Of a stretch of DNA of 32,325 bases, positions 15,244 through 32,325 are shown in pieces. The notes beneath the pieces are model-generated. The model made no database searches, was not told where the DNA came from, and saw nothing but the letters and a program-made list of their open reading frames with translations. Position 1 is the stretch's first letter, and each line of letters starts with the position of its first letter. Both the position numbers and the translations under genes were made by a program. This stretch comes from an uncultured Oscillospiraceae bacterium (GTDB lineage: Bacteria; Bacillota_A; Clostridia; Oscillospirales; Oscillospiraceae), in contig CAAEDK010000091.1 of NCBI GenBank assembly GCA_900754605.1, positions 1 through 32,325 of the forward strand, written 5' to 3'.

Positions 15244-15678
15244 ATGGAACAAGAGAACAGATTGAAGATCACTGTCTGGCTGAAGCCGGACGTCGTACAG
15301 CGTATGGATGGCTGGCTCAGAGCGGACAACTGCAAAAGCCGTGGAGAGTTCACAGAGAAGGCCCTCCGGTTCTACATGGGATACCTAGCAGCAGAGGACA
15401 CATCTGTGTTTCTCTCCCGCACGTTGGTGGACACCCTCCAGGGGATCGTAGCGGACAGCCACAACCGCCTGCGCTCCATGATCTTCAAGTGGTGTGTGGA
15501 GCTGAACATGATGGGCCACACCATCGCCGCCCACTTCCGGGCGGACCCCATCAACCGCCGGGAGCTGCGGGCCTATGCCGTGGACGAAGTGCGGCGCACC
15601 AACGGTCAGATCAGCTTCGACAGGGCACTGGATCAGCAGCGCCGGTTCCCGGAGGATGTCTTTGACGATGACGTATGA
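15244..15678 (+). CDS. RHH-type relaxosome accessory protein
   Basis: The 144-residue product starts at ATG 15244 just after GGAGGAAAT. Its N-terminal half has a ribbon-helix-helix pattern (LKITVWLKPDVVQRMDGWL, then CKSRGEFTEKALRFYMGYL). The rest is helical, with HNRLRSMIFKWCVELNMMG. The stop overlaps the relaxase start in ATGA. Small RHH proteins encoded directly before a relaxase usually bind oriT and recruit the relaxase, as MobC or TraY-like proteins do. This role is inferred from fold and position. Confidence 0.75.
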   Translation: MEQENRLKITVWLKPDVVQRMDGWLRADNCKSRGEFTEKALRFYMGYLAAEDTSVFLSRTLVDTLQGIVADSHNRLRSMIFKWCVELNMMGHTIAAHFRADPINRRELRAYAVDEVRRTNGQISFDRALDQQRRFPEDVFDDDV

Positions 15679-17507
15679 GTGACCTTCGATTCATGTCACC
15701 ATATCTCAAAGGCGGAGGAGACAGCGCCCGGAGAGCAAATCGCATCCGCTACTTTGCCACTCGCCCCGGTGTGGAGGTGCTCTCCGATGGGGGAAGTCAA
15801 CCCGCCACCAAAAAGCAGAAAGCCTATATCCAGCGGTTGCTCCGGGCCTTCCCTGACGCCAGGGAGCTATTGGAGTATGAGGACTATCTGAAAAACCAGA
15901 CGCAGGAGTCCGCGTCGGAGTTCATCCGACAGGCTCGAGAGGACTTTGCGGTGCCCATGAGCCAGCGGGAGAACTACCTGGACTACGTGTCCCACCGCCC
16001 CGGCGTGGAATTGCGGGGAGAGCATGGACTCTGGACCAGCGGCGGCAAGGTGGAGAATCTGTCCGAGGCGGTGCGGGAGGTGGCGGAGCATCCCGGCAAC
16101 GTCTGGACGCCAGTGGTGGCGATCCGCCGGCAGGACGCGGAGCGGCTGGGCTACGACAACGCGGAGAACTGGCGCGCCCTGGTAAACGCCAGCCTTTGCG
16201 ACATCGCCAAAGGCTACAAGATCCATCCGGATCACCTGCGGTGGTACGCCGCCTTCCATGAAAAAGAGAAGAGCGTCCATATCCACATGGTGGTCTTCTC
16301 CTCCGATCCCAAAGAGGGCTACCTCACTCCGGACGGCATCCGGCAGGTGAAGTCCGCCTTCGCCCGGCGGATCTTCCAACAGGACCTGATGCATATCTAT
16401 GAGCAGAAGACAGCGTACCGCAACCAGCTGCAGCAGAATGCCGCGGAGGCCATGCAGGAGCTGATCCGGCAGATGCGGGATGGGACCCTGGAGAACCCGC
16501 AGCTGGAAGATCAGATAGAGGCCTTGGCGCGGCGCCTGCGGACGGTCCGAGGGAAAAAGGTCTACGGCTACCTGCCGCCGGAGGTGAAGCTGATGGTGGA
16601 CGGGATCGTGGATGTGCTGGCCGCTGATGAGCATGTGGCAAAAGCCTATGACCTCTGGAATGAAATGCGGGAGTCTATCTGCCGGACCTACTCGGAGCAC
16701 TTGCCAGAGCGGCTGCCGCTCTCCAAACAGAAGGAGTTCAAGCCTGTGCGGAACATGGTAATCCGAGAGGCGTTACTACTGGTACAACAGGAAGAAGGGA
16801 TTGCGGAAGAGCCGCAGCGGGAAGCTGACCTACGCCACGTCCAACACGCTGCGGAGAGCGGCGATCCGGCGGCCATGTGTGATCTAAGCGACCTCCTGAT
16901 GAAGCAGAGAAGAAGCAGTGAGGCGCTGTACTGGCTGGAGCAGTCCGCCCGAAATGGCGATCCTCGCGGGCAATATGTGCTTGGAACGTGGTATCTGAAA
17001 CGAGGAAATGTCCAAAACGCGCTTCGATGGCTGACTGCGGCTGCTGACCTGGGCAGCAGCACCGCCCAGTATCGTCTGGGCGTGCTGTACCTGAAGGGCG
17101 AACAGGTGGAGAAGAATTTGGAGCTGGCAGTCCGATATCTGACTGCTTCTGCGGAGTGCGGAAACCAGTATGCTCAGTACACACTGGGAAGTCTGTATCG
17201 TTCCGGAAATGGGGGCTCCAGAGACGAGGCCCTGGGACGGGAGTGGCTATCCCGTTCTGCGGCCCAGGGAAACCCATACGCCCGACATCTGCTGGATCAC
17301 CCGGACCAGAACTGGACAACTGTGGTCCAGTCTGTGATCCGGCTCCTGTACCACATGAGCCGGATCTTCGAAGACAACTGCAAGACAGACGCTATGCACC
17401 GGGGGCTACAAATCGACCGCAAGCGCCGCCGACAGTTCCGGGAGCGGAGACTCGCTCTGGGGCACAAGCCGGATGACCATGAGAATGAGGAGATCAGGCT
17501 CCAGTAA
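15675..17507 (+). CDS. MobP3-family relaxase with C-terminal Sel1-like repeats
   Basis: Relaxases nick oriT and stay attached to the transferred strand. The 610-residue protein begins FMSPYLKGG and carries the MobP3 pattern: RYFATRPGVEVL with PATKKQ, then YVSHRPGVELRGEHGLW, HPGNVWTPVVAIRRQDA, RLGYDNAENWRAL and RWYAAFHEKEKSVHIHMVV. The two RPGVE strings (about residues 32 and 113) look like a short internal repeat. The metal-binding HIH is at residues 202-204. From about residue 395 to 540 there are four Sel1-like helical repeats (for example AALYWLEQSARNGD-type units, QYRLGVLYLKGEQVEKNLEL). These normally bind proteins. A basic tail follows (RKRRRQFRERR). The frame is complete. Confidence 0.9.
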   Translation: MSDLRFMSPYLKGGGDSARRANRIRYFATRPGVEVLSDGGSQPATKKQKAYIQRLLRAFPDARELLEYEDYLKNQTQESASEFIRQAREDFAVPMSQRENYLDYVSHRPGVELRGEHGLWTSGGKVENLSEAVREVAEHPGNVWTPVVAIRRQDAERLGYDNAENWRALVNASLCDIAKGYKIHPDHLRWYAAFHEKEKSVHIHMVVFSSDPKEGYLTPDGIRQVKSAFARRIFQQDLMHIYEQKTAYRNQLQQNAAEAMQELIRQMRDGTLENPQLEDQIEALARRLRTVRGKKVYGYLPPEVKLMVDGIVDVLAADEHVAKAYDLWNEMRESICRTYSEHLPERLPLSKQKEFKPVRNMVIREALLLVQQEEGIAEEPQREADLRHVQHAAESGDPAAMCDLSDLLMKQRRSSEALYWLEQSARNGDPRGQYVLGTWYLKRGNVQNALRWLTAAADLGSSTAQYRLGVLYLKGEQVEKNLELAVRYLTASAECGNQYAQYTLGSLYRSGNGGSRDEALGREWLSRSAAQGNPYARHLLDHPDQNWTTVVQSVIRLLYHMSRIFEDNCKTDAMHRGLQIDRKRRRQFRERRLALGHKPDDHENEEIRLQ

Positions 17508-17622: not shown

Positions 17623-18294
17623 ATGGACGGAGCCATGGAAAACCTGTATCGAAAAATAGCTGCCATCGGACGAAGGTTCCGGGCAGAGCGTGTCGTGCTG
17701 TTCGGCTCCAGAGCCAGGGGGGACAACCGCTCCCGCAGTGACATTGACATCGCGGTTTTCGGAGTGTCCCCAGATGACTTGCCTGCATTTCGTGAGCAGC
17801 TGGACGAATTGCCGACCCTCCTGGAATTTGATCTGGTTTTTGTGACAGAGCAAACCAATCCAAAATTGGTGGCCAATATTGAACGGGATGGTGTGATTTT
17901 AATGGACAAAATGCAGGAGAAGTATGAAAAGCTGGTCCAAGCCGTTCACCGATTGGATGAGGCCATCGTTGATTACGATCAGATGGGCCTGGATTCCATC
18001 CGCGATGGTGTCATCCAGAGATTTGAGTTCTGTGTGGAGCTGGCCTGGAAGACACTGCGAGAGTATTTGCTGGACCAGGGGTATACAGAGATCAACAGCC
18101 CGAAGTCTGTGATGAAGCAGGCGTTTGCGGACGGTATTCTGGATCACGAAGAAGGCTGGCTCCATCTCCTGGATGCCCGCAATGAAACCTCGCATATCTA
18201 CGATGAAGCAACAGCCACAACTGTATTCGGAGATATCCGGACTGTGTACGATCCGCTCTTGAAAAACCTGATTCAAAAACTAGGGACAAAATAA
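17623..18294 (+). CDS. Single-chain MNT-HEPN (MntA-HepT-like) fusion
   Basis: This 223-residue protein joins two domains that are usually separate genes. Residues 1-100 are a minimal nucleotidyltransferase with GS-x10-DxD intact (GSRARGDNRSRSDID) and a further acidic strand, LEFDLVFV. Residues 105-220 are a HEPN/HI0074-like domain (FEFCVELAWKTLREYLL). It contains RNETSHIY, which fits R-x4-H-x-Y, the RNase site plus the tyrosine that MntA AMPylates in studied HepT toxins. ATG 17623 follows GGAGGAG. Own promoter and terminator make it an independent cassette behind the relaxase. The fusion would place toxin and antitoxin in one chain; whether it is toxic is unknown. Confidence 0.85.
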   Translation: MDGAMENLYRKIAAIGRRFRAERVVLFGSRARGDNRSRSDIDIAVFGVSPDDLPAFREQLDELPTLLEFDLVFVTEQTNPKLVANIERDGVILMDKMQEKYEKLVQAVHRLDEAIVDYDQMGLDSIRDGVIQRFEFCVELAWKTLREYLLDQGYTEINSPKSVMKQAFADGILDHEEGWLHLLDARNETSHIYDEATATTVFGDIRTVYDPLLKNLIQKLGTK

Positions 18295-21580: not shown

Positions 21581-22396
21581 TTACACAACTTGCTTTGCTA
21601 CGACAACAAATCGCTCATCTGAGGTGTTGTAACTGCAGGTCGAAAGTGTCAGTAACTGCTCACCGAACTCTGCCGTGACGCCAGTGCTATAGAGCGCCCT
21701 GTCCCCTACCTGAGCGAGATACTCTTGGAAGATGGCTTCGTCGCGTAGACCCGTGTATTCGTAGAAGGGAAATGCGACGCCATCTTCTGAAAGTGACACG
21801 TCTATGTAGAATGCCGCAAGCACCTGATACGTTCCAGTCTCCTCCAGGGTATCAAAACGGATCGTAGGATGCTCTTCCCAGAATGTATCATCTGCGTAGT
21901 TCAGAAGGGCTGCGAACATGCTGCCGTCTTTCATATTATGCCCATATATGATATAGTTTCCGCATCCTGTAAAGCAGCCCGCTGCGAGGAATGGAGTCCC
22001 GCTGACAGAATTGCTTCGGTCAAAAGCCCGTCGAAGATAATACTCCTCGTCCTGTGCGGTATGCATCACGGGGTAGTCGATTGCCGTTCCTTCAATGGAA
22101 AGCCATCCGGCCAAATCCTGATTTTTCTCCCACAGCGCCTGATACTGTGGAAGAACGCCGTCCTCTGTAGGCAGAGCGCCGCCCCCCGCCTCCGCGATCT
22201 GTTTCTCCATCTGATGCACTTGTTCGGCAAGCGCATCATAAGCCGCCTGTTCCTGCTGGGAACGGTACAAATTTCGCAGCAGTAAACCGCCGGAAACCAG
22301 GAATGCCGTCAAAAAAATCAGGAATAAGAAAAACTTCCAGTGGGATTTCCGTTGGAACTCCCTTCGACCCCCAAATGAGGCCATTTTGTTGTCCAT
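21581..22396 (-). CDS. srtB: Class B sortase
   Basis: This 271-residue transpeptidase starts at ATG 22396, about 7 bases after AAAGGAG; an upstream in-frame ATG at 22450 lies within the terminator-proximal region and is rejected. It has an N-terminal membrane anchor at about residues 21-41, then a helical stalk (YDALAEQVHQMEKQIAEAG). Catalytic residues are all visible: His153 in YGHNMKDGSMF, Cys254 in TLSTCSY, and Arg262 in DERFVVVAK. Class B sortases attach proteins to peptidoglycan or join pilins. The likely substrate on this element is the SpaA-like protein at 1-1359, which ends in LPRTGY. It is transcribed against the transfer genes. Confidence 0.92.
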   Translation of the reverse strand: MDNKMASFGGRREFQRKSHWKFFLFLIFLTAFLVSGGLLLRNLYRSQQEQAAYDALAEQVHQMEKQIAEAGGGALPTEDGVLPQYQALWEKNQDLAGWLSIEGTAIDYPVMHTAQDEEYYLRRAFDRSNSVSGTPFLAAGCFTGCGNYIIYGHNMKDGSMFAALLNYADDTFWEEHPTIRFDTLEETGTYQVLAAFYIDVSLSEDGVAFPFYEYTGLRDEAIFQEYLAQVGDRALYSTGVTAEFGEQLLTLSTCSYNTSDERFVVVAKQVV

Positions 22397-22444
22397 TATG
22401 GACTCCTTTCCGTATTTCCTCAAATTGTTGTGGTAAGCGTCAAA

Positions 22445-22490
22445 CGGCAAAAAATAGAGGAGGGAACATGGCTAGGCCATGTTCCCTCCT
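22445..22490 (-). terminator. Terminator of the XRE/DUF6514-like operon
   Basis: A perfect 15-bp stem (arms 22458-22472 and 22476-22490, core AGGGAACATGGC) with loop TAG is followed on the minus strand by TCTATTTTTTG. It separates this operon from the sortase gene. Confidence 0.9.
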
Positions 22491-23140: not shown

Positions 23141-23246
23141 TCGATTTGAGCAGGTTGAGCCATAGAGTTCGCGTCACCCAATAGATTGAATCGGCAATGA
23201 GAAAAAAGATGGATTCCGGTTGCAAATTCGTATGGGAGGCAGATAC

Positions 23247-24455
23247 ATGAACTCTGTAGGTATTGACATCTCCAAAGGCAGGAGCACGATTGCCGTCATG
23301 CGTCCCTTTGGAGAGGTTGCCATCTCACCCTTTGAAGTGCGTCACACCGACAGTGAACTGAGCGAGCTGGCAAGGCGGCTCAAAAGCCTGAACGGTGAGA
23401 CGCGTGTGGTCATGGAGGCCACAGGAAACTACCATGCGCCGGTGGCAAAGCAGCTTCACGACGCAGGGTTATATGTTTCCGTTGTCAATGCAAAGCTGGT
23501 GCATGGCTACGGGAACAATGATTTGAGGCGTGTCAAGACTGACCGGAAGGATGCTATAAAGCTGGCGAACTATGGTCTTGACCGCTGGCTTACCTTGCCG
23601 AGATATATCCCGGAGGAAAATACCCGGCTGTTGCTGAAGAACTGCTATCGCCAGTACCGACAGTATTCCAAGGTGCAGACTGTGTTGAAGAACAATCTGA
23701 TTTCTTTGCTGGATATGACCTTTCCAAATGCAAATCGCCTGTTTAACAGCCCTGCCCGTGCAGATGGAAGTGAGAAGTGGGTGGATTTCGTAGCGGAGTT
23801 TTGGCATTGTGAATGCGTCTCTGAACGCCCCCTAAAGTCATTCGTGAACAAGTACTGGCGGTGGTGCCGAAAGCATGGGTACAACTTCAGTGAAGAAAAA
23901 GCACACGCCATTTACGATGAAGCCAGCGGACACATTGGTGTCATGCCGAAATCTGAAACCACAAAGCTACTTGTGGAGCAGGCTGTATCTCAGCTTAGCG
24001 CTACTTCCGCTGCGCTTGCTGTGCTCAAACAGGAGATGCAATCTCTGTCCTCTCAGCTGCCGGAATATCCTGTTGTCATGGACATGTTTGGCGTTGGCCC
24101 GACTCTTGGGCCGCAGCTCATAGCTGAAATTGGGGATGTTCGCCGTTTTTACTCCAAGAAAGCACTCGTTGCCTATGCTGGTATTGATGCCCCACCGAAT
24201 GACTCTGGTGATGTGATCGGTAGGCACAAGAGCATGAGCAAGGTAGGCGCATCGTCGCTACGCCGGACGCTATTCCTTGTCATGAGCGTCTATTTGCAAA
24301 ACTCGCCGCCGAATGAACCAATTTACCAGTTCATGAACAGAAAACGAGCCGAAGGCAAACCCTACCGCGTCTACATGATGGCATCCGCGAATAAATTCCT
24401 GCGGATCTACTACGCCACAGTGAAAGCCTATCTGGAAATATTAGAACAGATCTGA
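23247..24455 (+). CDS. IS110-family transposase (DEDD plus Transposase_20)
   Basis: This 402-residue recombinase starts at ATG 23247, 8 bases after GGGAGG. The N-terminal RuvC-like DEDD domain shows VGIDISKGRSTIAV, VVMEATGNYH and RRVKTDRKDAIKLA. The C-terminal domain has MFGVGPTLGPQLIAEIGDVR and YAGIDAPPNDSGD, where the Ser is the expected catalytic serine. These enzymes move DNA under guidance of a bridge RNA. Length and motifs indicate an intact gene, and the element may be active. Confidence 0.93.
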   Translation: MNSVGIDISKGRSTIAVMRPFGEVAISPFEVRHTDSELSELARRLKSLNGETRVVMEATGNYHAPVAKQLHDAGLYVSVVNAKLVHGYGNNDLRRVKTDRKDAIKLANYGLDRWLTLPRYIPEENTRLLLKNCYRQYRQYSKVQTVLKNNLISLLDMTFPNANRLFNSPARADGSEKWVDFVAEFWHCECVSERPLKSFVNKYWRWCRKHGYNFSEEKAHAIYDEASGHIGVMPKSETTKLLVEQAVSQLSATSAALAVLKQEMQSLSSQLPEYPVVMDMFGVGPTLGPQLIAEIGDVRRFYSKKALVAYAGIDAPPNDSGDVIGRHKSMSKVGASSLRRTLFLVMSVYLQNSPPNEPIYQFMNRKRAEGKPYRVYMMASANKFLRIYYATVKAYLEILEQI

Positions 24456-24734: not shown

Positions 24735-26303
24735 TTAATTTTGGAGTGCCAGACAAGCCTTGGAAACATTTTCCGGGAGTAATCCCACAGCCCAGTCCGG
24801 CTCATGGGCGGCCGCCAGAACCGGAGCTTTGGTCAATATATAAACCAGGTAGCGGTACGGATCCAGGCCATTGGCCTTGGCGGTTTCAATCATACTGAAT
24901 ATCACCGCGCTGCTCTGTGCCCCGCGGGGCGTGTTAGCAAACAGGAAGTTTTTCCGCCCAATCACAAAGGGCTTTATGGAACGCTCCGCAAGATTGTTGC
25001 TCAACTCCAGCCGTCCGTCTTCCAGGGCACGGATCAAGTAGGGCCATTGTTCTTCAAGATAGTACAGCGCCTTTCCCAATGCGGATTTTGGAGCGGCTCT
25101 GTTTGTAGATGCCCATGCCAACAAAGCGTCCATCACGGGTTTAGACCGTTGCAGACGCTGTTCATATCGTTCTTTTGGCGGCAGGTCCCGCATTTCCTGT
25201 TCTATGAAGAACAGCTTGCTGCAATATGCCTGCCCTTGCAGTGCCGCAGAGCCTGGCTGGTCTTTCTGCGGCAAAGACTTCACCGCCTCGTCAAACTTGC
25301 GCCGCAGGTGCACCCAGCAGCCCACCACTCGGATGTGCTCCGGCAGGCTGTGGTAACCTGGGTAGCCGTCCGCATGGAGCCAGCCAGAGAACCCTTTCAA
25401 GAATCGCTCCGCGTTGCCGGCTTTCCGGTCCGGTCGGTACTCGTAGAGCACCATCGGATAGCTGGTATGGGCGCCCGCCCGGTAAAGCCACATATAGCTC
25501 TTGGACTGGGCGGATTTCCCAGGCTCCTTCAATACCTGGAGCGTTGTCTCATCCGCGTGAAGCACATCTTCCCGCACCAGCCTGCGGTGCATTTCCTCGT
25601 AGACCGGCATCAGCCAATCGTCTGAGGCACGCAGGATCCAGTTGCTCATCGTCTGCCGTGAGAGCTGGATACCGGAACGGTTCAGCTCCTGCTCCTGCCT
25701 GTATAGCGGAGAGGCCATCACAAACTTCTGCACCATAATATGTGCAATCGCCTCCGGAGAGGCAAAGCTGCCTGGGATCACACTGGGAACCCGGCCGGTC
25801 TTTCGGACCGGCGTTTCCGCCGCGTCTGTTTTGCATTCGGGGCAGGCGTAGGTGTAATAGACATCCTCACGGATCGTGGCGGTGGCAGGACGCAGAACCA
25901 GCGTTCGCACAGTCTCTTTGCCAATTCGCTCCATCACAGTACCACAGGCATCACAGACCCGCTCTCCTTCCGGGATACCATGCTCCACAACTTCTACCGA
26001 AATGTTCTCTGGCAGAACGCCATCCAGATTGCTGGAGCGCTTCTTCCGGGTGTGGGCAGACACTGTGGTGCTTTTGGTGGGTTGCTCCTCTTTTGGCGTC
26101 CACGCTTCGGCTTCGTTAAAGAGGAGGCTGAGCTGTCCCACAAGCTGTTCTGTAGCCTGCTCGGAGGACACGCCAAAGGTCTTTTGCTTCAACAGGCGCA
26201 GTTGTCCCATGAGGTAATCCAGCTTCTTGTTCAGCTCGGCATTCTCCGCAAGCAGCGCATCATATTCCTCGCGGGAGATGAAACTCCGTTCATCCTTTCC
26301 CAC
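24735..26303 (-). CDS. tnpC: IS66-family transposase TnpC
   Basis: This 522-residue DDE transposase is read from GTG 26303; no clear ribosome site is seen. It starts with a leucine-zipper helix (EEYDALLAENAELNKKLDYL), followed by a zinc-finger-like part (CDACG and CPEC). The catalytic core has HADETTLQVL, WLHADGYPGYH and SNNLAERSIKPFVIGRKNF. The C-terminal part has SSAVIFSMIETAKANGLDPY. All standard IS66 motifs are present at the standard length. It acts with TnpA and TnpB. Confidence 0.92.
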   Translation of the reverse strand: MGKDERSFISREEYDALLAENAELNKKLDYLMGQLRLLKQKTFGVSSEQATEQLVGQLSLLFNEAEAWTPKEEQPTKSTTVSAHTRKKRSSNLDGVLPENISVEVVEHGIPEGERVCDACGTVMERIGKETVRTLVLRPATATIREDVYYTYACPECKTDAAETPVRKTGRVPSVIPGSFASPEAIAHIMVQKFVMASPLYRQEQELNRSGIQLSRQTMSNWILRASDDWLMPVYEEMHRRLVREDVLHADETTLQVLKEPGKSAQSKSYMWLYRAGAHTSYPMVLYEYRPDRKAGNAERFLKGFSGWLHADGYPGYHSLPEHIRVVGCWVHLRRKFDEAVKSLPQKDQPGSAALQGQAYCSKLFFIEQEMRDLPPKERYEQRLQRSKPVMDALLAWASTNRAAPKSALGKALYYLEEQWPYLIRALEDGRLELSNNLAERSIKPFVIGRKNFLFANTPRGAQSSAVIFSMIETAKANGLDPYRYLVYILTKAPVLAAAHEPDWAVGLLPENVSKACLALQN

Positions 26304-26334
26304 GGTTTTTGTGAAAATTGTTCGGTTTGGAGAG

Positions 26335-26691
26335 TTAAACCATACTCAGACCTGTCACCGTTTTGTGGGCTTTCGGCTGCTCGATTTTCAGCCCCTCCAT
26401 TAACCATCTTTACTGCTGTGGCGTCAGCAGCTTCACCTCTGCCTCGCTCCTCGGCCACTGGTACGCCCCCTGCTCCAATCGCTTGTAGAGAAGAATGAAC
26501 CCATCCCGTTCCCAGTACAACCCTTTGATTCGGTCCCGCTTTCGCCCGCAGAACAGAAACAGTGTGTTGGTAAAAGGGTCCAGCTCAAATTGCTGCTGTA
26601 CCATTGTGGCTAAGCCGTCAATTCCTTTCCGCAGGTCTGTGTACCCGCAGGCGAGGTACACCTTATCCGCTCCGCCGAAATCATTCAGCAT
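26335..26691 (-). pseudogene. tnpB: IS66 TnpB with internal stop codon
   Basis: The frame encodes the IS66 accessory protein TnpB (KVYLACGYTDLRKGIDGLA, FLFCGRKRDRIKGLYWERDGF). It stops at TAA 26410-26412 after LLTPQQ, giving 93 residues. The same frame continues with RWLMEGLKIEQPKAHK, the normal conserved end of TnpB, to TAA at 26335, which would give about 118 residues, the family's usual length. A single-base change from a Tyr codon explains the stop. Loss of the end probably reduces or abolishes transposition. Overlap with tnpA is 7 bases. Confidence 0.85.
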
Positions 26692-27056
26692 GACTTCAGC
26701 GCCAGCAGGAGAGCCTGCACCATCTTCGAGTCAGCTCCGGAATAAATATTTACAGATGTCTGACCTACCTGGATGTTAGCCACGAGTTCGCTGGCAGCCT
26801 GCCGCAGTTGCTGTGGTGGCGGTAGTTCCACGAAGCAGCTTTCTTGATCTTCCGCCTCCAGTTGGAGTTTCTGCTGCTCCACCATAAAGGAAAATACTTT
26901 CTTCTGCCAGCTGTAATAGGTCTTAGGGGTCACTCCATTTTCCTCGCACCACCGCTTTACGGACATTCCACTCTGTCTGCAGTCGGCCACCCGCTGACTC
27001 CACTCAAACAGCCGCTGCCGCTGGCCCATGCTCTGAATGCTTACTTCTCGGCTCAT
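26685..27056 (-). CDS. tnpA: IS66 TnpA (HTH protein)
   Basis: This 123-residue protein starts at ATG 27056 after GGGAGGT; an in-frame ATG at 27077 has no such site. Its N-terminal half is a helix-turn-helix, with WSQRVADCRQSGMSVKRWC and ENGVTPKTYYSWQKKVF. The C-terminal end has SVNIYSGADSKMVQALLLAL, a normal IS66 OrfA ending. It likely binds the element ends. Confidence 0.85.
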   Translation of the reverse strand: MSREVSIQSMGQRQRLFEWSQRVADCRQSGMSVKRWCEENGVTPKTYYSWQKKVFSFMVEQQKLQLEAEDQESCFVELPPPQQLRQAASELVANIQVGQTSVNIYSGADSKMVQALLLALKSC

Positions 27057-27130
27057 TGTGTACCTCCCTCGCTGCATCCTCTCACCCCCACTGACGGTGA
27101 CTTAGGGTGATTATTACCTTCTAGGCCGAA

Positions 27131-28249: not shown

Positions 28250-28272
28250 CAGTGACATTCACGATGTCACTG
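28250..28272 (-). terminator. Possible terminator of envelope operon
   Basis: CAGTGACAT (28250-28258) pairs perfectly with 28264-28272 over a 5-base loop, about 35 bases beyond the lipoprotein stop. There is no clear T run on the minus strand, so termination is uncertain. Confidence 0.45.
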
Positions 28273-28306
28273 CTATTGCCTACAAACCGGATCGCATTGT
28301 ACCATT

Positions 28307-29521
28307 TTATTCGATATAATATTTCTCCAAAATCTGAGCAGCTTCCGTAGAGGTTCCGATAACCAGCACGGCTCTGTTTTCCGGGGCGTTCTTTTCATTG
28401 AGGCTTCCATCTGCGTTCAGGTCTTCAACATGAAATTCATGGTCATATCCCAAGCCAATCACATGTTTGATCTGAGTCTCTGAGGTGCCCATATCAATCA
28501 TCAGCTGACGGACAGCCTCCGCACGCCTCAAGCTAAGCTCTTTACATTGTTCATTTGTCCCCGCTGTCGCTGTCGTCCCCGCTAAAATCACCGTGTAGTC
28601 GGGATGCTCTAGGAGGTAGTCCACAATAGGGGACAGCTCCGAGACCGCATCATCCCTGTCCACAAAGGTCGCTTCATCACCATTGAACAGGGGCTTGACC
28701 TGATTGACTTGCAAAGGGTCAAAATCGTTAGAATCGTGGACAATAGGGATTGGAGTTACTTCCGGTAGTTCTCTATCCGTACTCCCCTCCTCTGTAAGCG
28801 GGAGATTTTTGAATGTGACCTCCGCACCTGATGTAGTCAGCACAGCCTCCCACAGCTCTTTCAGTGTATTCTTGTTGCGAGAAGTCAAATCTTCCTGCTT
28901 ATCCGCTGCATCGCCGAGGCCGATCCATACGACTTGTACACCAGTCAAATCCGGTAAGGCATGATCTTTTTGTAATTTATCGACTATCGGCTGGACATCA
29001 ATTAGGCGGTGCAGATTTTCGCTTAGTACATTCAGTTCACCTTCAGTCGATAGTCCGCTGTCCAAAATATACAGGCATTTATCCCCGGCTTCGCCGGTCA
29101 GGCCTCTCGCCGCTTGCTTGATTGCCTCAAAGGTGTCTACCTCTGGGTCATTGGCTTTTGAACTGGCCAAAGCGTTGTTCGTGCTATCTATCACTTCGGA
29201 AATTTGTTGTTCCAGGCGGGCTTCCGATAAACCCGAAACAGCACTTTCGTCTATTTCAAAGTCTACCACAGCTGCAGGGTCTCCATCGTTCACCACAATG
29301 GTCACAGAACCGTTATTTCGGGTACTGTATTCAAATGCTTTCAGGATTTCGGAATTATTTATTGGGGGTGTGACTGCATTTTGATGGTAGCCAGATACAA
29401 TGGCAATATCTGTGGCTTCGATTTCAGGAGGGCCAGCGGGAACATCAGAAGATCCGCACCCAACCAAAGAAATCATAATCGCGGCAGCCACTCCCGCAGC
29501 AATCTCTGTCCTCATCTTCAT
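28307..29521 (-). CDS. Lipoprotein with vWA-like and OmpA-like domains
   Basis: This 404-residue protein starts at ATG 29521, 8 bases after GGAGG. It has a lipoprotein signal with lipobox LVGC (Cys22), so it should be anchored on the outer face of the membrane. Residues 35-250 resemble a vWA/Rossmann-like fold: TDIAIVSGYHQNA, GDKCLYILDSGLSTEGEL and GVQVVWIGLGDAAD. Residues about 270-395 are OmpA-like (YTVILAGTTATAG, LSLRRAEAVRQLMID, GLGYDHEFHVEDL, ENRAVLVIG). OmpA domains bind peptidoglycan. Here the usual Asp of the GHTD motif is Ala, though the Arg of LSxxRA is kept. It is the last gene of the operon. Confidence 0.8.
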   Translation of the reverse strand: MKMRTEIAAGVAAAIMISLVGCGSSDVPAGPPEIEATDIAIVSGYHQNAVTPPINNSEILKAFEYSTRNNGSVTIVVNDGDPAAVVDFEIDESAVSGLSEARLEQQISEVIDSTNNALASSKANDPEVDTFEAIKQAARGLTGEAGDKCLYILDSGLSTEGELNVLSENLHRLIDVQPIVDKLQKDHALPDLTGVQVVWIGLGDAADKQEDLTSRNKNTLKELWEAVLTTSGAEVTFKNLPLTEEGSTDRELPEVTPIPIVHDSNDFDPLQVNQVKPLFNGDEATFVDRDDAVSELSPIVDYLLEHPDYTVILAGTTATAGTNEQCKELSLRRAEAVRQLMIDMGTSETQIKHVIGLGYDHEFHVEDLNADGSLNEKNAPENRAVLVIGTSTEAAQILEKYYIE

Positions 29522-29540
29522 CTCAAAATCCTCCTTCCAA

Positions 29541-30311
29541 CTATGTATCGGTCAATTCGGAAATACTCTCAGCATCCCCCAATTTTTTCGCCAGCGCGAG
29601 CCTTGCCCATTTCTTGATTCGATCCGAATCTGCCTGAATGGTACCCTTTGCGGCTTTCAGCCTCTCCGTTTCCGTTTCAGGCAGGGCATTTTCCCAATTT
29701 CGATTCAGCTCACACTCAGCAGCGTATAGACGGTTGACCTGTTCTTTCAGGAGCGCACTCTGGTATCTGAGCGTATCCAGCCGGCGCTTGATCGGATCGC
29801 TAATCACATAGCCCAGTGCCAGATTCACAGCGGAAGTCACCAGAGGGATGATACCCATGACCAAAGTAAATGCAGTTTCAGCTTCCGGATTGGCCTCTGT
29901 TTCCGGGAGGATTGATCCTTTCGCGAAAACGTTCGCAGCTCCATCCATACCACGCGTTTCCCATCTCAAATAGAACGTGGCAAAGAACAGCAGTAAAAAT
30001 ACAATGACTAGTCCTACAATCATCCACAACTTGACTCCGTTCATGCCATACCGGTGGTAGTGAATATATCTGCCCACTACGAGAGGAATAAAATTTAAAA
30101 CAACGGCGATGCCAACGGTCAGCAGGTAGAGCGCCTCTTTTTCCGCTGATTCAGTCATTTTAAAGAAAACCTCATACAAGGTCACGCCGTCCATGCAGGA
30201 AAGTCCAATAATCAGTGGATAAATTATAACCCCCCGCATCCACAGTTCTTGGTCCGCGCGATTGATTTTCCTGATCCGTTTAGACAGGGTATACAGTTCT
30301 CTCTGTCTCAC
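29541..30311 (-). CDS. Four-helix membrane protein with cytosolic coiled-coil tail
   Basis: I do not recognise this 256-residue protein. GTG 30311 is chosen because GGAGG lies 8 bases upstream. A basic N-terminus (QRELYTLSKRIRKINR) is followed by helices at about residues 28-50, 58-82, 94-115 and 147-170. A polar loop lies between helices 3 and 4 (GSILPETEANPEAE). The last 85 residues form a charged coiled coil (DTLRYQSALLKEQVNRLYAA). It is encoded between a coiled-coil protein and the OmpA-like lipoprotein, with gaps of 33 and 19 bases. It may be the membrane partner of the lipoprotein. Confidence 0.75.
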   Translation of the reverse strand: MRQRELYTLSKRIRKINRADQELWMRGVIIYPLIIGLSCMDGVTLYEVFFKMTESAEKEALYLLTVGIAVVLNFIPLVVGRYIHYHRYGMNGVKLWMIVGLVIVFLLLFFATFYLRWETRGMDGAANVFAKGSILPETEANPEAETAFTLVMGIIPLVTSAVNLALGYVISDPIKRRLDTLRYQSALLKEQVNRLYAAECELNRNWENALPETETERLKAAKGTIQADSDRIKKWARLALAKKLGDAESISELTDT

Positions 30312-30344
30312 CTGACATCCCTCCCATACCAAAAACCAATAGGC

Positions 30345-30752
30345 CTATCTGTTCATTCTGTCGTAAATCGCCTGCAGCAAATCGATTTCCGCATCGACTT
30401 TTCGAATGAGGTCCTCGGCCTGCTTGATCTCCGCACGCAGGCGGATCAATTCGCTCTCGTGTTTTAGAACTATGGAGCTGTTGACGCCTTCGTGCCAGGT
30501 TTTCTGCTCTTCCAACAAAGATATCAGGAGTTTCCCCTCTTGTTCTGTGTAGGCATCAAAAAAGCTGCCGCTGAATCGATCCGGCGAAGTTTCTTTCAAA
30601 AACTTGTCGATCTGCAACTCCGCTCTGCGGAGCCGTTTCTCAGGGGATATAGGTTCTATATAGTCGACAGCCGTCAAGCCAACATCCGGTGCATAATGGG
30701 GCACATCCTTCAAGCCCATGCGCCGCATTCGCCATTTCCGAATCCAACCCAC
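30345..30752 (-). CDS. Small coiled-coil protein of the envelope operon
   Basis: I do not recognise this 135-residue protein. GTG 30752 lies 8 bases after GGAGG. It has a basic N-terminus (IRKWRMRRMG) and a middle part with SPEKRLRRAELQIDKFLKE. It ends in a long coiled coil (ELIRLRAEIKQAEDLIRKVD). No signal peptide or membrane helix is present, so it is probably cytosolic and may bind the coiled-coil tail of the neighbouring membrane protein. Confidence 0.7.
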   Translation of the reverse strand: MGWIRKWRMRRMGLKDVPHYAPDVGLTAVDYIEPISPEKRLRRAELQIDKFLKETSPDRFSGSFFDAYTEQEGKLLISLLEEQKTWHEGVNSSIVLKHESELIRLRAEIKQAEDLIRKVDAEIDLLQAIYDRMNR

Positions 30753-30779
30753 CTACAATACCTCCATTCTTCCGGAACA

Positions 30780-31529
30780 CTAACTTTCTTCTTCCGTCTC
30801 TGATGCCGTAGTTCGATCATTTGGTGGTTCCGCCCCTGCCGCCGTAGTTTGGCCATTTTGCGGCCCTGTCTCTGATGCCGTAGTTTGATTATTTGATGAA
30901 TCCACATTTTTCTCCAGCACTGCTTTCAACAAGGATTTCCGGACATTATCGTTCCATAGATGTTTTTCCCGATAACTTTCCTCATTGCTAAGCAGAACGG
31001 GTACCGTGTATTCAACCGGGAAATTCACGGCCCTGGCCGCAAGAGTTGCTCCGTGCAAATAGGCGTGGATTCGCCGTTCTGTCAGCGCGGCAGCTTCCCG
31101 CTGAATTGCTCCTGCCTCAACGATGTTTTGGATCAGATCCTCTTCAATTCCGGCCATATTCAATTTTATGGTCCGCTTCCTGTCGCGGAGCGTCGGTTCG
31201 ATTGTAGCTGCGCGGGCTTTTTGGCGAGCTTGAGAAGAATTTGTCCCCCCACTTGGAATCGGATCTGGCTTTGTCAGCTGTTCCAGGATGTTGTGATACT
31301 CTACCGCCAGACTTACGCTCTCCTTGTGAAGCTGAGATGTTTTTTCTTCCAGCTCCCGGTATGTACGATGGACAAATGAATGAAAGATAGCCTCTTTCTT
31401 TTGAAGATAGTGGCCCTCCCATTTCCCGTCCTTGAAGGCCACGACGTTTCGTTTGCCATCCAACCTGCCGTGAAAACGCACAATAAACAGCGGCATCCCT
31501 GTGATACCTCGTATTTTCAGTCGTTTCAT
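30780..31529 (-). CDS. Unknown soluble protein with C-terminal repeats
   Basis: I do not recognise this 249-residue protein. ATG 31529 follows GGAGGTACATA; an in-frame ATG at 31559 has no ribosome site. The N-terminus is beta-rich (GMPLFIVRFHGRLDG). The centre is helical (RTYRELEEKTSQLHKES). A later part has VNFPVEYTVPVLLSNEESYR and then NVRKSLLKAVLEKN. The last 37 residues are three imperfect 12-residue repeats rich in Thr, Ala and Glu. It is the second gene visible in the operon. Confidence 0.7.
   Translation of the reverse strand: MKRLKIRGITGMPLFIVRFHGRLDGKRNVVAFKDGKWEGHYLQKKEAIFHSFVHRTYRELEEKTSQLHKESVSLAVEYHNILEQLTKPDPIPSGGTNSSQARQKARAATIEPTLRDRKRTIKLNMAGIEEDLIQNIVEAGAIQREAAALTERRIHAYLHGATLAARAVNFPVEYTVPVLLSNEESYREKHLWNDNVRKSLLKAVLEKNVDSSNNQTTASETGPQNGQTTAAGAEPPNDRTTASETEEES
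30798..30900 (-). repeat. Three imperfect 36-bp tandem repeats
   Basis: The repeat core GCCGTAGTTTGxxxATTTG occurs three times. The outer copies share TCTGATGCCGTAGTT. On the minus strand it encodes units of the form NQTTASETGPQN, with GQTTAAGAEPPN and DRTTASETEEES as variants. Confidence 0.75.
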
Positions 31530-31584
31530 TATGTACCTCCAATTCAACTCTGCGGCCATATCTCAATCTATTTGACAGGCGGAT

Positions 31585-32325
31585 TTAACGGTTCCACAGC
31601 CGGATCCCCTGTCCCCTAGGAATTCCGCTTTTCTTCAAATAGTCAAAGGTTCCTGTCATCGTCCGCTTCATGACGAACTCCACCATTTTGTCTTGAATGA
31701 AGTTGAAGCACTCGTTGATTTTCCAGACTACCTTGCCCAAGGCGGCACCGATCCAGATCGCTTCCATCATCTTGTGAACCCCCTCGTAAAACGAACCAGT
31801 CACAATTACCGCGATTGCCGCAAAAACGAGACGTACAATAACCGCCGCTATAATCGTCCACAGCTCGATAAATCTCAAGATCAACACATAACAGAAAATC
31901 GAGAGAAGGAGAGTCTTTCGGCTCAGAACCAGATTGGGGATGTATGCTTCATCGGGGACATCCCGGTATAAGTTCTCATCATAATCGTGGATCAAGTAAT
32001 CTTCCAGAGCCAGGGAAAGAACCACCCGCTTCCGGCTGATAGGGATAAAGTAGGGAATCCGGCTTTCTGCATAATAAAACCTGCATTTTGGCTTTAAATA
32101 GCCTTTTCCTGATATAGCCTCCCGAAGATACCGTCGTAGCGCCGGCATGATCAGTGCCTCCTCCGGCACAGCTTTTGCATAGAATACGAACAGGATTGAG
32201 AGCCAATCCCCGACTGGATTCCATGCGGTCAGTCCTAACAGCAAAACCGCGAACCCGCAGTATACGCCATAGAGGACCAAGTCCCAGCCTACCAGGAACG
32301 GCAGGCCTGCGACTGCCACATTCAA
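31585..32325 (-). CDS. Multi-pass membrane protein, 5' end at window edge
   Basis: The 246 visible residues may start at TTG 32325, but the frame may continue outside the window. Hydrophobic helices lie near the start (FLVGWDLVLYGVYCGFAVLL), at about residues 135-150 (LLLSIFCYVLILRFIEL), and at about 155-175 (IIAAVIVRLVFAAIAVIV). A cytosolic or external stretch of about 90 residues with PIPYFIPISRKR-like and LALEDYLIHDYDENLY strings lies between them. I see no HExxH or other enzymatic motif. It precedes the repeat-bearing protein by 55 bases. Confidence 0.6.
   Translation of the reverse strand: MNVAVAGLPFLVGWDLVLYGVYCGFAVLLLGLTAWNPVGDWLSILFVFYAKAVPEEALIMPALRRYLREAISGKGYLKPKCRFYYAESRIPYFIPISRKRVVLSLALEDYLIHDYDENLYRDVPDEAYIPNLVLSRKTLLLSIFCYVLILRFIELWTIIAAVIVRLVFAAIAVIVTGSFYEGVHKMMEAIWIGAALGKVVWKINECFNFIQDKMVEFVMKRTMTGTFDYLKKSGIPRGQGIRLWNR

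Follow-up and report, generated by a model that had tools for sequence, protein, structure and literature searches.

A conserved gene unit around an envelope lipoprotein

The 32,325-nucleotide stretch analysed here (hereafter the window; contig CAAEDK010000091.1 of an uncultured Oscillospiraceae bacterium) ends in a block of five co-oriented genes, g1 to g5, encoding a lipoprotein, two membrane proteins and two soluble proteins. Judged by sequence comparison, the block exceeds a chance association and is a real unit for g4, g2 and g1, because diverged homologues keep the same order elsewhere. We tentatively propose that it serves as a wall-tethered sensor of conflict (defence) systems, carried in this case with a conjugative element, a possibility that we take seriously with confidence a little short of even. 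The initial annotation, made from the DNA letters, had suggested that the five genes form a defined envelope system; this is right for g4, g2 and g1, which are linked in actinobacteria, and likely for g3, which agrees in place and size only, while g5, for which no match was found, did not bear it out.

According to the open reading frame (ORF) listing, five minus-strand ORFs fill positions 28307–32325. The first, g1 (28307–29521), encodes a lipoprotein of 404 residues with a lipobox cysteine (C22), a vWA-like N-domain (residues ~38–238) and an OmpA/Pal-type C-domain (~267–391). It is preceded by g2 (29541–30332), a four-pass membrane protein with a long C-terminal helix, whose best start is the GTG at 30311 behind a ribosome-binding-like GGGAGG; by g3 (30345–30752, as called), a small soluble protein of 135 residues; and by g4 (30780–31559), a soluble coiled-coil-like protein with a GRLDGKR motif. 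The best g4 start, the ATG at 31529, follows a ribosome-binding-like GGAGG and gives a 249-residue product equal in length to its relative P0018. The membrane protein g5 (31585–32325, as called) comprises at least 246 residues; its ORF is open at the window edge, which cuts the 5' end, and its true start thus lies outside. With the starts behind ribosome-binding-like sites, the intergenic gaps are 55, 27, 33 and 19 bases, in agreement with the spacing of 19 to 55 bases initially given, and hydropathy analysis likewise bears out two multi-pass membrane proteins (four hydrophobic segments in g2, three in the visible part of g5) and two soluble or coiled-coil proteins (no segment in g3 and g4). 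Directly downstream of g1, at ~28250–28275, lies an 8-bp inverted repeat (CAGTGACA ... TGTCACTG) without a clear T run.

Family annotation does not reveal this unit, since the sole Pfam match over its cut-off among the five proteins is OmpA in g1 (E = 1.5e-10), which leaves g2 to g5 without one. An NCBIfam scan of the block gave nothing over the cut-offs, and PADLOC and PHROGs returned weak matches or matches to the OmpA part.

Relatives and conserved gene order

Searching plasmids with g1 by tblastn yielded four actinobacterial records at 23–31% identity, three of which cover at least 80% of g1, and a scan of genome contigs added 12 further actinobacterial loci. Several relatives sit on megabase-size contigs of actinobacterial genomes. 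A profile of the g1 N-domain recovered, at E ≤ 0.001, 10 of the 396 genomes in a phylum sample (four at E < 1e-30, the weakest doubtful) and 37 of the 250 in a sample of one family. The centre genome G001, in which g1 had been found beforehand, is part of both samples. The distribution of g1 is patchy.

Profiles of g1 to g4 were then built from actinobacterial loci, and the fetched loci were searched in six frames. Among the 36 loci with a g1 match at E < 1e-75 (strong rows), g2 and g4 each occur in 31 and g3 in 20, and the order g4>(g3>)g2>g1 is kept on one strand in 26, with g3 in between in 19 of these. For g4, g2 and g1, neither of the refuting outcomes named in the initial annotation, membership of known unrelated families or a failure to travel together, is borne out.

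Homology between the window and these loci was assessed gene by gene. Window g2 matches a hidden Markov model of 31 actinobacterial relatives with 60.6 bits (E = 1.1e-17), against 7.8 bits for the best of 1,500 locally shuffled decoys. A nine-sequence g4 profile of the window lineage matches the 31-sequence actinobacterial g4 profile with a probability of 94.4 and a score of 57.6 (at most 19.8 in 40 block shuffles); window g4 alone is not significant against the same profile (E = 0.057). The g3 gene shares its position and size class with the g3 gene of the actinobacterial loci, and g5 had no relatives in family-library, database or profile searches.

Closer relatives point the same way. The protein database holds 17 matches to g1, several of them near-copies or broken copies, and 18 to g4; the diverged g1 relatives P0010, P0011 and P0013–P0016 are 69, 61, 41, 38, 31 and 30% identical. 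The longest contig has the same length for the g1 relative P0010 and the g4 relative P0026 (12076), and likewise for P0014 and P0029 (48887), an indication that diverged g1 and g4 genes share contigs.

A tree of 65 g1 sequences places the window lineage in a group of seven rows (support 100/100), which joins the actinobacterial four-gene clade (clade 1) in a group of 42 rows (support 100/99); the tree program flags the letter composition of the window row and some others. The strong rows comprise 34 distinct clade-1 loci, as L078 duplicates L016 and L004 falls into a second set, "clade 2". The latter is not one branch, given that 4 of its 21 rows (L108, L111, L113 and L114) fall on the clade-1 side. 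A third group, represented by L036 and L038, has a g1-like lipoprotein without OmpA. When compared with the g2 profile by hhalign, the membrane protein reaches 96% in both the second and the third group, with scores of 73.9 and 68.6, respectively; 30 shuffles for each gave no score above 41.6 and 38.2. Because clades 2 and 3 pair them too, the g1-like lipoprotein and the g2-like membrane protein look like a constant core.

Domains and conserved residues of g1 and g2

The description of g1 as a lipoprotein holds for the OmpA-like domain and probably for the vWA-like one. Its lipobox reads LVGC, ending in C22, and no hydrophobic segment follows the signal peptide; the OmpA fold passes the Pfam cut-off and is of the Pal type. 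The AlphaFold model (mean pLDDT 85) shows an N-terminal domain of alternating strands and helices, the topology of vWA domains; the strand/helix order of modelled residues 38–238 fits a putative vWA fold. Scanning 10 relatives or pieces for VWA_2 gave E values of 4.7e-4 to 0.11 in L036, L038, L099, L107, L110 and L004, all under the Pfam cut-off, and no match in L010, L079, P0013 or the window N-domain.

The metal site (MIDAS) of vWA domains has the motif D-x-S-x-S. This motif is missing from the vWA-like domain of g1, where clade 1 and the window lineage show G-x-R/H-x-N instead. In 38 aligned g1 rows (37 from clade 1 and the window lineage, plus L004), G44 is conserved in 35, an R or H at position 46 in 37 and N48 in 36, the N48 exceptions being P0015 and L004. 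By a simple pattern search, D-x-S-x-S is found in 15 of the 21 clade-2 loci, including L098 and L112, which were counted on FDGSAS alone, regardless of its position; a G-x-x-D-x-x-G site occurs in 12 of the 21. In OmpA/Pal domains, a conserved Asp and a conserved Arg usually bind diaminopimelate (DAP). The Asp column holds Ala in 25 rows, Ser in 11, Pro in one (L009) and Asp in one (L004, clade 2), so that the DAP-binding Asp is absent from all 37 non-clade-2 rows; R333 and R383 are invariant (38/38). In clade 1, both g1 domains thus seem to have altered ligand sites together, since the clade lacks the MIDAS motif as well as the DAP-binding Asp, with clade 2 often keeping D-x-S-x-S.

The g2 protein carries D48, G87 and R123 in 32 of 32 rows (numbering from the TTG start at 30332). 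The invariant Asp sits in the first transmembrane segment (TM1) and the invariant Arg after TM3, and the AlphaFold model (mean pLDDT 84) ends in a 72-residue helix (180–251) that follows TM4. We infer that the N-terminus of g2 faces the cytoplasm and that the lipoprotein lies outside the membrane. The initial annotation had pointed to a likeness with trans-envelope machines of Gram-negative bacteria; understood as homology, this was not upheld, as no motor or secretion subunit matched g2 and its model gave no Foldseek match at E ≤ 0.001.

Neighbouring genes in actinobacterial loci

One kinase gene family is found in nine loci. All eight members tested match Pfam Pkinase (L094 lay outside the test), as does the kinase of L036 in the third group. 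The kinase starts no more than 10 bases from the end of the g1 match, or overlaps that match, in L033, L079, L082 and L091; its start in L012, where the called ORF overlaps g1, was set by hand. Pfam scans of single representatives identified a CHAT protein (L033), AAA_2 (L079), TIR_2 (L102), PycTM (L084) and Csm6-HEPN (L036), and L010 has a TPR protein as neighbour that weakly matches caspase (E = 0.0085).

Clade-2 loci have partners of their own: an NTPase-like protein of ~775 residues (17 loci), a membrane protein of ~510 residues (16), a 305-residue protein (13), cyclase-like and Crp-type proteins (nine each), and TIR-type and PycTM-type proteins (four each). Crp-type and PycTM-type genes are also carried by L084 of clade 1. 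With one or two members tested per family, Pfam confirms Crp, TIR_2 and PycTM; tested members of the NTPase-like, ~510-residue, 305-residue and cyclase-like families had no Pfam match, for which reason the labels "NTPase" and "cyclase" are assignments by eye.

We compared the proximity of CHAT and TIR genes with expectations from each genome's own gene density. CHAT was searched genome-wide in 42 genomes, its near-match counts being lower bounds, and the 26 clade-1 loci counted leave out plasmid loci, L005, L006, L008, L009, L011 and L014. A CHAT gene lies within 25 kb of at least 9 of the 26 clade-1 loci (0.87 expected). TIR genes lie within 10 kb of 3 of 20 clade-2 loci (0.15 expected), a count that stays at three within 25 kb (0.37 expected). 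The P values overstate these enrichments, because CHAT and TIR were chosen post hoc and several loci are close relatives.

Two loci deserve separate description. In L079 (1245–9264, minus strand), g1 is followed by the kinase, a 421-residue protein with a hydrophobic N-terminus, a ClpB-like AAA+ protein, a second g2-like four-pass protein and a radical SAM protein. The ClpB-like AAA_2 family recurs in four loci (L079, L012, L082 and L091), the second four-pass protein is common to six other loci, and the radical SAM family is present in five. Beyond g2 itself, a four-pass protein of seven kinase-type loci matches g2 at 97% with a score of 84.0 (shuffles up to 59.9). In L036 (1892–9375), from a low-GC genome of the actinobacterial sample, genes for a kinase, a small membrane protein, a g2-like protein, the vWA-like lipoprotein and Csm6-HEPN are co-oriented, with a gene that looks CARF-like by eye upstream.

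Mobile-element context of the window

The remaining window holds conjugation genes, namely TrbL_5, a MobL relaxase, a TraG-type P-loop protein, a VirD4-type coupling protein and a class B sortase. Horizontal movement had initially been proposed from bordering insertion sequences (IS); an IS110 gene (23220–24455) and an IS66 gene (24735–27077) do adjoin the block, and its link to the conjugative element is the better sign of mobility. Both IS genes and the sortase gene stand between the block and the transfer genes, and the block runs on the strand opposite to TrbL, MobL and VirD4. Relaxase genes occur within ~10 kb of two of the four plasmid relatives, with mobF in L002 and mobC and a relaxase in L003.

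Several features of this region are worth recording. The MobL relaxase is joined to Sel1 repeats in one protein (15675–17507, plus strand). MntA-like nucleotidyltransferases and their HI0074-type partners are normally separate genes; a single ORF at 17623–18294 (plus strand) combines a Polbeta/MntA-like nucleotidyltransferase part with an HI0074-type substrate-binding part. In the database protein P0017 (4 contigs, the longest 76.9 kb), the first 63 g1 residues (29333–29521) are fused in frame to the window sortase (21581–22450, minus strand), as if the intervening IS region had been deleted or an assembly error had occurred. In P0001 and P0012, g1 is fused to IS66 genes, and the end of P0008 consists of unrelated residues.

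A putative wall-tethered sensor and its alternatives

We favour a role as conflict sensor because a constant exported lipoprotein and membrane protein stand amid changing intracellular genes of signalling or killing type, as expected of a sensor with interchangeable output. Stated for a putative, hitherto undescribed superfamily as a whole, and again proposed tentatively at somewhat under even confidence, the constant core would consist of a vWA-like lipoprotein, with or without OmpA, and a four-pass Asp/Arg membrane protein. It would be shared by actinobacterial chromosomes, plasmids and a Gram-positive conjugative element, and would plug into interchangeable intracellular effectors (a kinase with AAA+ or CHAT; an NTPase with a TIR, cyclase-like or Pycsar effector; CARF-HEPN). 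For the window's own block, where no effector is visible in the window, the sensor role is suggested by analogy.

In the mechanism that we envisage, g1 is exported and, given its lipobox, probably lipid-anchored, and its OmpA domain would hold peptidoglycan or another wall ligand. The vWA-like domain may bind a partner via the conserved G-x-R/H-x-N at the position of its relatives' metal site, and g1 would then act on g2 at its outer loops. A switch could be formed by the invariant Asp of TM1 and the invariant Arg that follows TM3, and the predicted long C-terminal helix of g2 would pass the state of this switch to g3 and g4. From the gene neighbourhoods, the putative output of actinobacterial clade 1 would be the Ser/Thr kinase with ClpB-like AAA+ or CHAT proteins in some loci, and that of clade 2 the NTPase with TIR, cyclase-like or Pycsar-effector genes; candidates in the window's element are g5 or genes past the window. 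The module would couple the wall with the cytoplasm and would start defence responses, with phage entry, foreign conjugation and wall damage as candidate triggers. Sensing in many of the known bacterial defence systems takes place inside the cell. If our interpretation is true, the block would provide an outside-facing sensor at the Gram-positive wall, with a constant lipoprotein/membrane protein pair and varied effector sets, following a Zorya-like logic with other parts; the invariant g2 Asp/Arg and the altered g1 ligand sites make this proposal testable.

A number of observations weigh against a conflict sensor. PADLOC (2023) assigned none of the five window genes to known defence genes, its one weak match (E = 0.014) falling on the OmpA part. 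The conserved order is missing from 10 of the 36 strong rows: g2 and g4 are nearby yet rearranged in L001, L003, L083, L090 and L094, and the profile search found neither in L004, L009, L016, L078 and L085. The g3 protein gave no significant match to the actinobacterial g3 profile (E = 28). Among the nine kinase loci, the kinase is not adjacent to g1 in L083, L090, L094 and L096. CHAT genes are few within 10 kb of clade 1 (at least 3 of 26 loci, 0.35 expected), and neither TIR within 25 kb of clade 1 (1/26, 0.83 expected) nor CHAT within 25 kb of clade 2 (at least 1/20, 0.41 expected) is enriched; these negative cross tests narrow the enrichment to particular pairings and leave our confidence in the sensor reading as it stands. 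Moreover, CHAT and TIR were picked for testing after being seen as neighbours, the nine CHAT loci amount to about four gene arrangements by reading of the locus maps, these large genomes abound in kinase, CHAT and TIR genes, and a good many of the loci share descent.

Two other functions appear doubtful to us in equal measure. The block could be a conjugation accessory, either a device for surface or entry exclusion or a component of the envelope by which the mating channel is fitted to a Gram-positive wall, as the TrbL, VirD4/TraG, MobL and sortase genes of the window and the relaxase genes near L002 and L003 would suggest. Yet the sortase and IS genes separate it from transfer genes that run on the opposite strand, and several relatives sit on the megabase-size actinobacterial contigs, some beside kinase, AAA+ and CHAT genes. 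It could instead serve envelope upkeep with no conflict role, either as a tether to the wall in the manner of Tol-Pal or as the receptor through which a Ser/Thr kinase would perceive wall stress. The Pal-type OmpA domain and the kinase directly after g1 in four measured loci fit such a function, which is set against the patchy presence across the phylum sample (10/396 genomes), the carriage on plasmids and a conjugative element, and the proximity of CHAT in clade 1 and TIR in clade 2.

An ion-driven motor resembling ZorAB of Zorya or MotAB, in which g2 would form the ring in the membrane and g1 its anchor in the wall, is improbable. The invariant membrane acid and long helix of g2 and the peptidoglycan-binding-type domain of g1 recall such a device, and Zorya requires its peptidoglycan-binding domain and tail (PMC11890865); nevertheless, its key Asp is on the wall-binding ZorB, while g1 is a lipoprotein without a membrane helix of its own, and the Foldseek result for g2 also argues against a motor. 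Least probable is that IS elements assembled five unrelated genes. IS66 and IS110 border the block, and g5 and g3 have no sequence-level relatives found, but the homologous genes stand in conserved order in actinobacteria and the diverged relatives are apparently linked, so that for g4, g2 and g1 this explanation is already contradicted.

Comparison with known systems

A literature search retrieved no description of this gene set, most subscription papers being beyond its reach. The key Asp of ZorB lies in that protein's own membrane helix; the block was considered as Zorya itself, and this identification fails on the anchor of the wall subunit, for which g1 has the lipobox cysteine C22 and no hydrophobic segment past its signal. 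Likeness remains in the combination of a multi-pass membrane protein bearing a cytoplasmic helical tail with a peptidoglycan-binding domain, and the conserved key Asp is described on ZorB, the wall-binding subunit (PMC11890865). No relation of g2 to MotA/ZorA was detected, and PADLOC (2023) found no ZorC, ZorD or ZorE among the five genes, the window ending at g5.

The Pal protein of Tol-Pal shares its domain type with g1, which differs in its extra vWA-like domain and in lacking the usual DAP-binding Asp in the 37 non-clade-2 rows; none of the five genes matches a Tol family in Pfam. Motor-driven transducers with a vWA end domain place a vWA fold on the envelope side (PMC12204202), where the vWA-like domain of g1 would also lie. 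These are TolA/TonB-like with a predicted motor box, whereas g1 has a lipobox, and no motor box was seen in it, none having been looked for.

A thematic parallel is offered by the iSTAND and other NTP-dependent conflict systems, in which vWA, OmpA, caspase-like, TIR and cyclase themes surround one system, and in whose iSTAND members OmpA is listed among the peptidoglycan-associating domains (Kaur et al, 2020; PMC7159879). According to the same authors, iSTAND systems are almost entirely absent from actinobacteria. No MoxR AAA+, iSTAND or VMAP protein was found by Pfam among the five genes up to the window end at g5, the actinobacterial loci having been scanned at chosen neighbours only. The iSTAND systems combine vWA with MoxR and iSTAND proteins and use OmpA as one of several effector domains (PMC7159879); here, in contrast, the vWA-like and OmpA domains are joined in one exported lipoprotein, which together with g2 is the constant part.

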